Assembly: GCA_014802015.1 (NCBI GenBank)
Contig: JAAVDB010000036.1
Coordinates: forward strand, 1 to 61,030
From: Bacteroides sp.
GTDB lineage: Bacteria > Bacteroidota > Bacteroidia > Bacteroidales > Muribaculaceae
DNA length: 61,030 nt
Direction of reading: 5' to 3'
The stretch's first letter is position 1. Each line of letters opens with the position of its first letter. Position numbers and translations under genes: made by a program. The notes beneath the pieces are model-generated. The model was not told where the DNA came from. It searched no databases and saw only the letters and a program-made list of their open reading frames with translations. This document shows positions 56,454 through 61,030 of the stretch, piece after piece.

Positions 56454-57335
56454 TTAATACAAATAAAGGCTTTCAAGATATTCGTAAAAAGGTTCGAATA
56501 TAAATTGGTCGATATAGTATCGTTTGGACATATTTGGCATAGTGTTATCAAAAATATCAAATCGCCGAATCTCCATTTCCATGAACCAATTTCCAAGAGT
56601 TGTAATTAGTTGATCTCTTTGCTTGAAGTCATACAGATTAATTTCCATCATTAACACTTTAAGGTCCGAAAGACCTTTACGTATGGTCATCAAAGATGTG
56701 TTTGGATCCGGCAGAGTATGAGGAAGAATATATGAATAAGCATTCACTTGTTCTATTATATTATTAGAAAGAAAGCCATCAGTCAAAATGATGAGGGCAT
56801 TCCGATATCCATTTCTAACACATAGTTTATCAACCTCTCGATTACTGAAGAATCCACATATGTCACTTTCAATACTTTTGCAGTCAGATGTCGCATCGGA
56901 ATATAATTCAGCTAAATTGTTCTGAAATCGCGTCTTCATATTCATAAGCTCCGTCACTTTTTGCTTTTTTGGGATTTTAGATAAGTCAATACTGAGACTA
57001 TCAGCAAATTGAACTATATTCTGACAATTGGGCTTGGGGTATAAAATAACTTGAAATCGGTTGACGTTACAAGGTATACCACTCTCTATGCAATAGTCAA
57101 AAAATGAATCAACTGCATAATTGATTATGCCCATATCTTGTTCTGCCTGAGATGTAGTCAGATTTCTCGTGAGTCGGTCGGATAGGTCAAGATAAATAGA
57201 TAGATTCAGAGGTAAGAAATCATCGTAAGGGTCTTTGCCGCTAAATTTTTGATCATATTCAATGATGTTAATTAAAAATACTAAACCGAAAATAAAGATC
57301 GCTGATAATGAGATATAGGTGACTGCCTTTTTCAT
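56454..57335 (-). CDS. Membrane-anchored vWA-like protein, paralog 2 of the TerB-linked locus
   Basis: I do not recognise this 293-aa family. It has one N-terminal membrane helix (about 5-25) without a lipobox cysteine, then an external domain. The start of that domain, LPLNLSIYLDLSDRLTR (D50-L-S52), and ALIILTDGFL (184-190) follow the von Willebrand A plan, with a strand ending in DXS for metal binding and a later TDG. The usual DXSXS serine is replaced (DLSDR). It is closely similar along its length to the next gene upstream, so the two arose by tandem duplication. It is last in the minus-strand set, 149 bp after its paralog. AT-rich composition suggests recent acquisition. Confidence 0.7.
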   Translation of the reverse strand: MKKAVTYISLSAIFIFGLVFLINIIEYDQKFSGKDPYDDFLPLNLSIYLDLSDRLTRNLTTSQAEQDMGIINYAVDSFFDYCIESGIPCNVNRFQVILYPKPNCQNIVQFADSLSIDLSKIPKKQKVTELMNMKTRFQNNLAELYSDATSDCKSIESDICGFFSNREVDKLCVRNGYRNALIILTDGFLSNNIIEQVNAYSYILPHTLPDPNTSLMTIRKGLSDLKVLMMEINLYDFKQRDQLITTLGNWFMEMEIRRFDIFDNTMPNMSKRYYIDQFIFEPFYEYLESLYLY

Positions 57336-57484
57336 TGGTTTAGATTATATTAGATGGTATTTTCCCCACGACTCGCGTGGATGCAAAATAGATTCCGATG
57401 GGACTACTTGCATCACACGCTTGTGGAGATCAACGTTTCATGTTTTATCTGTTTAATCCATTTAGAGGTCTTTTCAAATACAGA

Positions 57485-58342
57485 TTAGTCATTGATGAAA
57501 CTGTTGATGTATGTGTCAGTATTAACCGGTAATGCGGTTTCGTTCACAATAAATTTTGCTACTTCCATTTCTTTAAACCAATTTTCAAGAATGGTGATCA
57601 ATTGGTCTCGTTGTTTTAGTTCATACGGGTTAACCTCCAGCATCAAAACCTCAAGATCTGATAGCCCTTTGCGTTTTACAATCAATGATGAATTGGGATT
57701 TTGAAGAGTCTGAGGAAGAATATATGAGTATGCATTTCCTTGTTTAATTTTATTATCTACATGGAATAAAAAGCCATCGGTAAGGATGACAAGGATATTG
57801 CGATATCCTTTTCGAATACATAGTTTATCAACCTGATGATTGCTAAAGAATCCCCATACATCACTTCCGACCCACTTGTTTTCATTCATCGTATCGGTGT
57901 ATATCTGCGCTAAATAGGTTTGAAAATGATCTTTCATATTCATTAGTTCCATTTTTTTCTCCTGAATAGGTATTTTTGCGAGATCAATATTCATCCCTTT
58001 TGCGAGTAGGGCGACATTGCTGCTGTTAGGTGTAGGATAGAAAAACACCTGAAAATGATTATTGCTGTTTACTATTTTGCCATTGTTGATACAATCATCA
58101 ATAAATATATCTATAAGATTATTTATTATTGCTGTGTCTCGTTCCATCTGAGAAGGAGTTAGTGCTCTTGTGAGTCGGTCAGAAAGATCCAGATATACGG
58201 ATATGTTGAGAGGTAATACTGTATCAACTTTATCAGTGTCACCTGTATCATCTGTCTTCGGATTTACAGTACAAGAATATAAAATCGAGACAAAACATAG
58301 CGCTATTGCATATAGTACGATATAGACTAATGATTTTTTCAT
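57485..58342 (-). CDS. vWA-like lipoprotein, paralog 1 of the TerB-linked locus
   Basis: This 285-aa predicted lipoprotein has a hydrophobic start ending in LYSC, with Cys24 as the acylated residue. A threonine/aspartate-rich linker leads to the vWA-like domain. That domain shows LPLNISVYLDLSDRLTR (D52-L-S54) and ILVILTDGFL (183-192), as in its paralog, plus the shared FFSN.(Q/E)VDKLC(I/V)R motif before the TDG strand. It lies 8 bp downstream of the four-helix membrane protein gene, so the two should be translated from one message. A periplasmic adhesion or sensing module working with that membrane protein is a plausible reading. The family itself is unknown to me. Confidence 0.72.
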   Translation of the reverse strand: MKKSLVYIVLYAIALCFVSILYSCTVNPKTDDTGDTDKVDTVLPLNISVYLDLSDRLTRALTPSQMERDTAIINNLIDIFIDDCINNGKIVNSNNHFQVFFYPTPNSSNVALLAKGMNIDLAKIPIQEKKMELMNMKDHFQTYLAQIYTDTMNENKWVGSDVWGFFSNHQVDKLCIRKGYRNILVILTDGFLFHVDNKIKQGNAYSYILPQTLQNPNSSLIVKRKGLSDLEVLMLEVNPYELKQRDQLITILENWFKEMEVAKFIVNETALPVNTDTYINSFIND

Positions 58343-58350
58343 GGAAGTTT

Positions 58351-59586
58351 TTAATTAAATAATTGATTGATTGTTGTTTTAAAGATTTGATTTGCCTCAT
58401 CTTGTTCTGCTGCGGGTCGACTCAATCCATTCATCATAGTCATCCATCCAGTAAAGAAGTCAGAAAGAGCTGTATGGATTATCTGTGTGTCATAATGAAT
58501 GGTATTAGAGATCTCTGAGATAAGTGATTTCCGTTTGTTTTCCAGAGATTCAAGTGTGGCATTATTAACAGTGAGGCGTTGTTTCTCCTGAGAAAGAGAA
58601 ATCTTTTGTGCAGAAATACTATCTTCCAATTTCAATATTTCTTTTTTATTGGATCTGATGTCTTCGTATGCGCTAAGAGTCATGTCAAAAACTATCCCCC
58701 ATATAATATATACGATGAATCCGCAAAAGATAACAGCCCATACAGACTCATCATTTATCGCCATTTTGAGACTGTAATCGGGATACTCTCCTAATTTAGT
58801 CAATATTTCAATGAAGTAGATTTTTTTTGCAATTAAATATGCTAAAATGCAGTCAAATATAAACGTAATGGCCAATACACTTCCTGTCTTTACATATTTT
58901 GTCCAAGATTTCTGTTGCATGAAAAAATGCAGACCATATCCGAGTCCCATAAAAATAATCGGCGCACACATGATGAATATGAGTTCGCCTAAACCATCAT
59001 GTAAAGCATGGGGTATTGCTTGAGAATCGAACATGGCTTCGCCGATTGAAACATTAACCCCGAACTGTTTGAAGAAAGCCGAGTAAAAAGTAGAACTATA
59101 AAATATGATGAGATAAAGAGTCAGAATTGTTAATATTACAAGTCCAATAATCATCTTTACTTTAGCCATTTTGTTTACGTCACCATGAATGCTTTTTGCC
59201 TCAATCAATTTTTCTTTGAGATTAGCAATGGAGTCATCAATCGCTTGAATTCTGTGCCCATTTTTGTCTATTTCCGCTTTTATTGTGATTATATCGTTGT
59301 CAGTTTCTTCAAGCCTCTTGGCTAAAAGTTTTATGTGCCTCTGTTGCAATTCTTCGTCAGCAATCTGACGCTGTTTCTCCGTATTAAAAACACGAGGTAA
59401 AAAGGCACTTAATGCCGGCAAGCTTGCGGTTACTTTACCACATATACGGGTTCCGTAGTACACGTATGTTTCATCCTGAAGTTTTGCATCCTCGTTGGTA
59501 CGCATTTGATTTTGCGATGTGGAGGTATAAGTGGGAGCAGCCTGTTTTGTACGGAACAGACTAACCACTCGATCGTTTATATTCAT
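58351..59586 (-). CDS. Four-helix membrane protein with two coiled coils, TerB-linked locus
   Basis: I do not recognise this 411-aa protein. Residues 1-65 are soluble and contain YYGTRICGKV. Residues ~70-132 form a long charged coiled coil. Four membrane helices lie near 143-163, 201-222, 234-257 and 282-302, and a second coiled coil follows at ~308-362. Both ends should face the cytoplasm, so two coiled coils could pair beneath the membrane. The gene lies between the TerB-like gene (14 bp upstream) and the vWA lipoprotein gene (8 bp downstream). A structural or channel-like membrane component of the same complex is the natural inference. No catalytic motif is visible. Confidence 0.7.
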   Translation of the reverse strand: MNINDRVVSLFRTKQAAPTYTSTSQNQMRTNEDAKLQDETYVYYGTRICGKVTASLPALSAFLPRVFNTEKQRQIADEELQQRHIKLLAKRLEETDNDIITIKAEIDKNGHRIQAIDDSIANLKEKLIEAKSIHGDVNKMAKVKMIIGLVILTILTLYLIIFYSSTFYSAFFKQFGVNVSIGEAMFDSQAIPHALHDGLGELIFIMCAPIIFMGLGYGLHFFMQQKSWTKYVKTGSVLAITFIFDCILAYLIAKKIYFIEILTKLGEYPDYSLKMAINDESVWAVIFCGFIVYIIWGIVFDMTLSAYEDIRSNKKEILKLEDSISAQKISLSQEKQRLTVNNATLESLENKRKSLISEISNTIHYDTQIIHTALSDFFTGWMTMMNGLSRPAAEQDEANQIFKTTINQLFN

Positions 59587-59600
59587 GGCTTTATTCTTTA

Positions 59601-59783
59601 TTATTGATTGGTTACGTTACTGATTATTTCATCCACAGAAACACCTTCTTTGACTGAATCAAGAATGAAATCGGCTATCTCTTCGATATTTTCCTCCGCA
59701 AAATTCATTTTTTCAATGTAGCGTTTTAATAATTCACGTTCTGTGATGTCAATTTCGCCATCGGCATATGCAATCTGTCCCAT
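59601..59783 (-). CDS. Short TerB-like protein, possibly 5'-truncated
   Basis: From ATG 59783 the product has 60 aa: GQIAYADGEIDITERELLKRY matches the first helices of TerB/DjlA-like domains (ADGE followed by an acidic helix), and the rest is one or two more helices. TerB domains are usually about 120 aa. The same frame stays open upstream to 59936 (51 more codons, including GTLAGKIRFLFN just before the Met), but no ATG, GTG or TTG occurs there. The gene may therefore use a rare start, have lost its 5' end, or carry a frame error. It lies 14 bp before the membrane protein gene. TerB proteins bind metals and act in stress or phage-response networks. Confidence 0.6.
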   Translation of the reverse strand: MGQIAYADGEIDITERELLKRYIEKMNFAEENIEEIADFILDSVKEGVSVDEIISNVTNQ

Positions 59784-59987
59784 GTTAAACAGAAATCGGA
59801 TTTTGCCAGCCAGTGTGCCAGGTGTTATAAATGAAGATCCGGCATCACGGACAGTCGCGGTAATTTCTGATTTATGGGCGGGTAAACGAAACGTACAAAA
59901 GATTGTAAAGCGATAATTTGTATTGTTTTCAGTGGGTTAGAGCGTGTTTTGATGTAGGTTTTCTGCACTCTGAAAGTGTGATTTTAG

Positions 59988-60081
59988 TTGGATTTGCTTG
60001 GATTTTGCTTGGATTTTGGAGGCCGAAAATGTGATATTTACTTGGATTAAGCCTTTGTTATGTTGGATTTTAGTTGGATTT
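59988..60081. repeat. Six TTGGATT repeats at helical-turn spacing
   Basis: TTGGATT(T/A) begins at 59988, 59998, 60009, 60052, 60063 and 60074. Spacings are 10, 11, 43, 11 and 11 bp, so all six lie near the same face of the helix in two groups of three. They sit in a gene-free interval (59784-60345) upstream of the TerB-like gene. Such phasing is typical of cooperative binding by a regulator or replication initiator. Confidence 0.7.
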
Positions 60082-60183
60082 GTAGAGATATGAGATTTCA
60101 AAATATATCGTCCTTATTGTTTACTCAGGTGGCAAGTGTTGGTAGGTAGCCGGGATTTATGTTGATTTTGGCAAATGGTCGGT

Positions 60184-60230
60184 AGATTGTAAACTAAGGG
60201 TGCCGCCTGTTTATTGAGATTGTAAACTAA
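60184..60230. repeat. Two 14-bp direct repeats AGATTGTAAACTAA
   Basis: Identical copies of AGATTGTAAACTAA lie at 60184-60197 and 60217-60230, exactly 33 bp apart (three helical turns). The core AGATTGTAA also occurs at 59900-59908 and 60293-60301, giving four copies across the same non-coding interval. They may bind the multi-HTH protein encoded just beyond. Confidence 0.65.
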
Positions 60231-60240
60231 CAAAATTAAA

Positions 60241-60267
60241 ATAACACGCTAAATAATAGCGTGTTAT
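60241..60267 (-). terminator. Intrinsic terminator after the multi-HTH gene
   Basis: ATAACACGCTA and its exact complement form an 11-bp stem with a 5-nt loop about 80 bp past the stop of the gene at 60346-60870. On the minus strand a T-rich run (TTTTAATTTTG) follows. This fits Rho-independent termination in that direction. Confidence 0.75.
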
Positions 60268-60345
60268 AAAAATGCACTTTTCGTTTTATGCGAGATTGTA
60301 ACATGGATATAGTGTTGGATGGAGTTTTGCCCGTGGAACAAATTG

Positions 60346-60870
60346 TTAAAATCTATTAATCTCACGTTGTAACACATAATACTGAGCCTCTATTTCATCG
60401 TCAAATATCGAGGCTTTTTTGAGGATCGCTAAGGCTTGTTTCATTTGCTCCCTTATTCCGTCCAGCGTCGGCAGGGCTTCCAACTTCATATCCTTTATTG
60501 TACTTTTCTTTGCTCCGAGTGTGGTTGCGATCTGACCGATAGACATTCCACGCAAATACAGATATTCGGCTAATTTTTGGTTTGCCCCAGTTGATCTTTC
60601 AAACTTGTGTAACCACATACGCGAGCAACCTAACTCGGCGGCTAATTCTTCTTTTGTTCCTTTATTTTTCTTCATTAGCTTGTAGTATTTCTTAGGGGTT
60701 ATCGCTGGCGATTTAGCGGGCGTTTCCGTGGGTCGTGTAACCTCACGGCGAACCCTCTGAATATATTTACTTTTATTGTATATATTCAGCGTCTCGGCTA
60801 TCTCATTGTTATCATAGCCGAGCAATACAAATTCTTTAATCCGTTCAAATAATGTGGGGTTATCTGTCAT
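60346..60870 (-). CDS. Protein with three predicted helix-turn-helix segments
   Basis: I do not recognise this 174-aa basic protein. It contains three stretches with the helix-turn-helix pattern: around 17-42 (LLGYDNNEIAETLNI), 71-92 (GTKEELAAELGCSRMWLHKF) and 106-130 (RGMSIGQIATTLGAKKSTIK). A Thr/Pro-rich linker lies at 46-59. There is no nuclease, recombinase or ligand domain. Proteins of this build occur in plasmids and phage-derived islands as replication, partition or terminase-like DNA-binding proteins, and some are transcription factors. The repeats next door are candidate binding sites. It is followed by a terminator; the upstream gene on the same strand ends 70 bp away. Confidence 0.65.
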   Translation of the reverse strand: MTDNPTLFERIKEFVLLGYDNNEIAETLNIYNKSKYIQRVRREVTRPTETPAKSPAITPKKYYKLMKKNKGTKEELAAELGCSRMWLHKFERSTGANQKLAEYLYLRGMSIGQIATTLGAKKSTIKDMKLEALPTLDGIREQMKQALAILKKASIFDDEIEAQYYVLQREINRF

Positions 60871-60903
60871 TCTGTCTAAAGTGTTGAGATATAAATGTTA
60901 AGT

Positions 60904-60933
60904 GGTGACAGTCACCCGAAAGCGACTGTCACC
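60904..60933 (-). terminator. Hairpin after the partial gene at the right edge
   Basis: GGTGACAGTC and GACTGTCACC form a perfect 10-bp stem with a 10-nt loop, seven bases past the stop of the edge gene. No T-tract follows on the minus strand, so it may be a terminator or an operator for the multi-HTH gene, which starts 33 bp away. Confidence 0.5.
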
Positions 60934-60940
60934 GTATGAT

Positions 60941-61030
60941 TTATTTTTCCATAGTCAGGGAGATAAGCCCCGGAGTTCCTTCATTATCGTCCATTTCGAT
61001 AATGGCTTCAATCAGATTCTGGAGCGTGGA
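60941..61030 (-). CDS. C-terminal end of an unidentified protein, runs off the right edge
   Basis: A minus-strand frame enters from the right edge without a stop and ends at 60941 after 29 codons: a helical, acidic tail (NLIEAIIEMDDNEGTPGL, then ISLTMEK). The position just before the hairpin and the multi-HTH gene suggests it is real and in the same direction. The family cannot be named from so little. Confidence 0.5.
   Translation of the reverse strand, partial: STLQNLIEAIIEMDDNEGTPGLISLTMEK

Follow-up and report, generated by a model that had tools for sequence, protein, structure and literature searches.

What is encoded by a compact, AT-rich group of membrane-associated genes at the end of a contig from a Muribaculaceae genome, and what could it be for? 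We analysed the complete contig C36 (JAAVDB010000036.1, 61030 bases, here called the window) of Bacteroides sp. assembly GCA_014802015.1 (G000; 45 contigs, 86.95% complete). Four minus-strand open reading frames (ORFs), separated by 149, 8 and 14 bp (Table 1), lie in a block with a G+C content of 35.7% (56454-59879) compared with 49.7% for bases 1-56000. This layout and the AT-rich composition agree with an earlier note made from the sequence, which had read the block as four genes for a TerB-like protein, a membrane protein with coiled coils (here CC) and two paralogs resembling von Willebrand factor A (vWA) domain proteins, which together might form a variant Ter-like complex for stress or defence. 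We found that the locus is a rearranged, damaged copy of a three-gene module, terB-CC-vWA, which recurs across the Bacteroidota. In some genomes the module stands next to exported enzymes that cut DNA or to enzymes of cell suicide, and so it may represent an undescribed envelope-based defence.

A three-gene module and its damaged copy

Searches with the vWA1 sequence matched 12 of 198 relatives. Within the order, a vWA alignment matched 15 of 393 genomes, and within the phylum, a CC alignment matched 23 of 395, the source genome being counted each time and a few weak or short matches (e.g. G378, G538, G655, G823) being included in the order and phylum counts. In the genome contig collection a single-sequence scan found no relatives. 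A scan with alignments yielded 504 pattern stretches, 391 of them encoding a relative, and from these we retained 79 loci (L109-L187) for examination. Most of these belonged to Bacteroidota; single metagenome-assembled genomes labelled Treponema, Acidobacteria, Elusimicrobiota, Oligoflexales and others may be binning errors. All three genes, terB, CC and vWA, occurred together in 67 of the 79 loci and CC with vWA in 75, and 132 of the 134 intergenic gaps in the complete loci were at most 30 bp long (two were longer). The genes thus stay together in other genomes, a point on which the earlier note had made its reading depend. A further set of 40 loci, which shares some contigs with the 79, contained 27 with all three genes and some others that were cut by contig ends, and nine divergent loci with CC or vWA lacked TerB (L080-L084, L090-L093). 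The existence of the module is therefore more than chance, as the same set is met again in genomes across the phylum. Compared with the distant flanks, its G+C content was lower in 77 of 86 loci, with a mean difference of -7.7 points, and the near flanks were also lower, by 3.1 points (66 of 87 loci). Two of the three conserved proteins, scanned as window sequences, remained under every Pfam and NCBIfam cut-off; by membership, intact relatives of the first protein belong to the TerB family (PF05099) and the third protein has the vWA superfamily fold.

The window differs from this pattern in two respects, the first of which is the state of terB. Intact TerB, the product of the first gene of the module, has 130-169 aa in seven relatives, and the 60-aa ORF that had been taken for a whole gene aligns with its second half only and is a fragment. 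In-frame TerB-like sequence extends about 30 residues 5' of the window ATG and ends near 59880. A profile search within the same genome placed positions 41-130 of intact TerB at 59610-59879 of the window and positions 2-62, the 5' half, at C42:59566-59760, from where the gene continues through two stops into the DNA of an element. The same 14-base motif adjoins both halves, in opposite orientations relative to terB. It is the inverted terminal motif of the element, AAACGAAACGTACA, found at 9 sites of the genome at ≤1 mismatch (reversed control: 0). Besides the window, where the contig ends inside it, the element occupies C42:59705-60461 and C17:193500-194653, with repeats near the element end and a helix-turn-helix (HTH) gene; the 1.15 kb flanking terB in the window recurs at the end of contig C17 with 75% identity, where it joins intergenic DNA and, as judged by eye, holds a homologue of the window HTH gene. 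As both terB halves abut one motif, the motif is repeated in the genome and the C17 copy joins intergenic DNA, we conclude that an inserted element splits terB. An intact TerB in the window was accordingly ruled out, one half of the cut gene being on another contig. The HTH protein of the element had no match in plasmids, phages or viral contigs.

All 40 intact relatives scanned matched Pfam TerB with E ≤ 0.01 (30.1 bits in the case of L149, for a cut-off of 24.4), and the window fragment, with 21.9 bits, fell under the cut-off. Two D..E pairs are conserved in intact TerB (D19/E26 and D79/E86), of which the fragment keeps the second only. Damaged copies also occurred elsewhere, with terB in two ORFs at L074 (8881-9287) and CC in two ORFs at L087 (8165-9420), L128 (726-1975) and L173 (8744-9995), so that the window copy is not the only damaged one.

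The second respect is the number of vWA genes. The two vWA proteins of the window are indeed paralogs (53% identity) and grouped as sisters in a tree of 69 rows (support 100/89), with a branch of 1.04 for vWA2 vs 0.20. A paralog pair as a conserved feature of the system was nevertheless ruled out, since one vWA copy was present in 79 of 79 loci (L109-L187) and in 39 of the set of 40, the exception (L094) being without a confirmed vWA hit. The second vWA gene is a duplicate private to the window lineage. With terB split and vWA duplicated, the window copy is probably impaired or down to its CC-vWA part.

Table 1. Features of the module copy and the adjoining element in the window.
Feature	Position	Strand	Description
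vWA2	56454..57335	-	293 aa, tandem duplicate of vWA1; hydrophobic N-terminal anchor, no lipobox Cys (by eye)
vWA1	57485..58342	-	285 aa with vWA fold; N-terminus lipobox-like (by eye)
CC	58351..59586	-	411 aa; four membrane helices between two long helices
terB 3' half	59601..59879	-	contains 60-aa ORF 59601-59783; second conserved D..E pair retained
inserted element, end part	59884..61030		splits terB; terminal motif 59884-59897; repeats 59977-60081; runs beyond contig end
HTH protein gene	60346..60870	-	174 aa; belongs to inserted element, outside module

Properties of the vWA and CC proteins

Structure prediction and Foldseek supported a vWA fold, which was clear in the predicted structure of vWA1, the only paralog modelled, and the lack of which would, by the earlier note, have refuted its reading. 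The classical metal ion-dependent adhesion site (MIDAS) motif of vWA domains is D-x-S-x-S. The family does not have this motif and instead carries D-x-S-x-R (vWA1 residues 52-56) and a later D-G, both without exception in 65 of 65 rows of the family. vWA2 retains D52, S54, R56, D161 and D189-G190, with changes at the near-invariant positions 159 and 163. A strict lipobox-like pattern, which overlooks plain lipoproteins, was found at the N-terminus of 81 of 103 vWA relatives; by eye, 13 of the remaining 22 have a Cys at a position like that of a lipobox and 9 have a hydrophobic segment. A location of the vWA protein outside the cytoplasm, as the earlier note had proposed, is therefore supported at the level of sequence. 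At L138:10001-10834, on the same contig as L020, a vWA gene stood by itself, with neither CC nor TerB.

CC was confirmed to have long helices (residues 78-132 and 314-360) before and after four membrane helices (139-171, 199-224, 229-262 and 280-311), in line with the coiled coils noted previously on both sides. Asp245 in the third membrane helix was invariant in 58 of 58 rows. Comparison with solved structures returned coiled-coil look-alikes only, and a Pfam scan of CC, made with the window sequence only, showed that it is not TerC-like.

Enzymes encoded beside the module

Neighbouring genes were compared in 106 loci, which remained of 118 loci with a vWA hit after 12 near-identical ones had been dropped. 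Pfam families were assigned to 77 downstream genes, consisting of 76 of 87 listed genes (11 excluded by hand, some of them long, e.g. at L169 and L171) and the hand-added third-position gene L120:4772-5539, one of four Endonuclease_NS proteins. The families shown included SNase (6), DUF6804 (5), Endonuclease_NS (4), DUF4236 (3), HSDR_N (3) and Exo_endo_phos (3). Among 71 of 105 listed upstream genes (exclusions by hand, mostly short genes) we found DUF6804 (11), DUF1508 (6), transglutaminase-like (6), TIR_2 (5) and FGE-sulfatase (5). The distant control comprised all 86 listed genes more than 5.5 kb away, for which, in the 25 of 131 families shown, only a TonB plug and two carboxypeptidase-regulatory domains, and no nuclease family, had two or more members.

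In a distance test, 728 kb of near sequence (within 4 kb of the module) were compared with 540 kb of far sequence (beyond 5.5 kb), matches at 4-5.5 kb being uncounted; as the queries were drawn from near genes, the query loci themselves are counted in the results. SNase was near the module in 6 of the 106 loci, Endonuclease_NS in 4, EEP in 5, HSDR_N in 11, TIR in 5, caspase in 5, DUF1508 in 14 and a response regulator in 21, with no far match for any of them; for a TPR histidine kinase the counts were 16 loci near and 3 far. The four nuclease families combined were near in 23 loci. By eye, 15 of 15 SNase, Endonuclease_NS and EEP partners start with a signal or lipobox-like segment. Those with HSDR_N, TIR or caspase domains appear to be cytoplasmic proteins.

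In a minority of loci the linkage to such enzymes is close. The Chitinophaga loci inspected encode on one strand, in this order, caspase, TIR-FGE, DUF1508, TerB, CC and vWA, and TIR and FGE are fused in one protein at L161. At the TerB-less locus L093 (14080 onward) CC and a PLDc_2 domain form a single fusion protein, and TerB-less L083 (13425-17147) adjoins Card1 and Cas_NE0113 genes. CRISPR-like arrays were present in 2 of 119 loci scanned, namely L083 (3 units) and L093 (22-23 units), and one upstream protein, assigned by eye to L080:2722-3111, matched Csx20 in PADLOC. By eye, we also take genes at L083 to encode RT-Cas1, Cas2 and Cas6 and a gene at L093 to encode a WYL-like regulator. Beside the window copy no partner enzyme was found; its neighbour is a plus-strand nitroreductase gene.

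Two kinds of small proteins also recurred. DUF6804, a small membrane protein (e.g. L118:11429-11803, L110:10729-11031), stood beside the module in 19 of 106 loci with no far match, and a literature search on its name found no paper. Small, presumably Cys-rich proteins with a hydrophobic start and, by eye, a YHxxxCxxL..C..C pattern (e.g. L178:10891-11142, L187:10997-11374) lay within 4 kb in 20 of 106 loci, again with none far; the L178 protein, the only one scanned, had no Pfam match.

Possible functions and known systems

The composition and order of the module, the vWA fold, the patchy AT-rich distribution and the linkage to partner enzymes in a minority of loci were observed, and on this basis we tentatively favour the reading that the terB-CC-vWA module relays an envelope event, in the likeliest case the arrival of foreign DNA or of a phage protein, to lineage-specific enzymes. 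The vWA protein, lipid- or membrane-anchored on the outer face, would bind a protein ligand via its MIDAS-like site, CC would cross the inner membrane with a coiled-coil stalk on the cytoplasmic side, and TerB would lie on the inner face of the membrane. As one output, exported nucleases would attack DNA during its passage through the envelope, and as another, TIR and caspase proteins would act in the cytoplasm. A more far-reaching form of the proposal, which we consider rather doubtful, is a trans-envelope conflict system in which an invader, at the cell surface or within the periplasm, is recognised by the exported vWA protein. Via CC and TerB this protein would license exchangeable effectors on either side of the inner membrane, be it exported nucleases that cut DNA crossing the periplasm or cytoplasmic TIR and caspase, and the phylum would possess a widespread defence module that current defence catalogues lack.

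Several observations weigh against a defence relay of this kind. None of the four nuclease families was near the module in 83 of 106 loci, and several Bacteroidales loci among those listed sit amid housekeeping genes. PADLOC tallies, which count families and not proteins, were 16 for the 71 upstream proteins vs 27 for the 86 distant proteins, so that enrichment near the module was not clear. Related genomes share neighbourhoods and the distance-test queries came from near genes, so the partner counts are not independent. Among viral contigs, plasmids and phages the vWA query had no match, and carriage by phages or plasmids was rejected on that result. The charge evidence for the topology of CC was modest. 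The neighbour families that could be compared (25 of 34 downstream, 25 of 48 upstream; near genes only scanned) included no other member of the Ter network, such as TerC, TerD, TelA or phosphoribosyltransferases. The stress or defence function put forward in the earlier note thus gained from the Pfam matches of intact TerB and from the nucleases, TIR, caspase and CRISPR-linked genes in a minority of loci, and lost by the PADLOC result and the lack of further Ter families among those shown.

An envelope-stress or aerotolerance device, in which vWA and CC keep watch over the intactness of the envelope, with TerB as the sensor of a metal or metabolite and nearby enzymes as secondary riders, appears unlikely. 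The best Foldseek match of vWA1 was BatB of Bacteroides thetaiotaomicron and another was an aerotolerance-related membrane protein of B. fragilis, and the histidine kinases and response regulators near the module would suit such a role, but the Foldseek matches show the common vWA fold only, and TIR, caspase and nuclease partners are unexpected for a plain stress function. External DNA scavenging, with the module arranging exported nucleases at the surface and extracellular DNA serving as a phosphate or nucleoside source, would explain the signal or lipobox-like starts of the SNase, Endonuclease_NS and EEP partners; it is improbable, given the seemingly cytoplasmic location of the HSDR_N, TIR and caspase proteins and given that most loci have no nuclease nearby.

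The Ter stress-response network consists of TerB, TerC, TerD, TerF and TelA, with the vWA protein TerF described as sub-membrane (PMC7824862). The module resembles it in combining TerB and vWA domains and a membrane protein in one neighbourhood, and differs in its vWA protein, which appears to be exported and not on the cytoplasmic side, and in CC, which is not TerC-like by Pfam. That the module is a branch proper of this network, conferring resistance to tellurite or other xenobiotics, is likewise improbable: Pfam TerB in all intact relatives and a vWA protein in the same operon fit this, but the predicted export of vWA, the lack of another Ter family among those shown and the relatives without TerB do not.

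Other systems share single traits with the module. Zorya, Kiwa and SNIPE pair membrane proteins that sense infection with DNA-acting partners (PMC12904381). SNIPE is a membrane-bound nuclease binding phage injection machinery. By analogy the proposed module would work alike, coupling envelope sensing to a DNA-acting partner, although its candidate sensor is an exported vWA protein and some of its partners are exported nucleases; the PADLOC Zor and Kwa models did not match the window proteins or two intact TerB proteins at E ≤ 1. Shango (PMC10250203) has a cytoplasmic TerB-like protein with an ATPase and a helicase, and shares the TerB-like protein with the module, whose conserved proteins matched no ATPase or helicase family in Pfam or PADLOC. 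MoxR-vWA ternary conflict systems likewise combine a vWA protein with exchangeable effectors, e.g. caspase and FGE-type domains (PMC7159879). In the module, however, effectors are separate genes; TerB does not occur in the text of that source, and a MoxR ATPase was not among the neighbour families shown. The Bacteroidota type VI secretion system membrane complex TssNQOPR, in which TssR has about 790 aa and three domains, also has a vWA-domain lipoprotein and a multi-helix inner-membrane protein, and identity of the module with this complex was ruled out because sizes and helix counts differ (PMC10781749). The three-gene set was not described in the literature searched, which did not extend to the founding Ter-network paper (PMC4104200).

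The module is common to many gut and environmental bacteria. If it guards against foreign DNA at the envelope, the few membrane-sensing systems known would be joined, in common gut bacteria, by a class that uses exported nucleases, and even if it is a stress device, TerB gains a fixed pair of testable partners.

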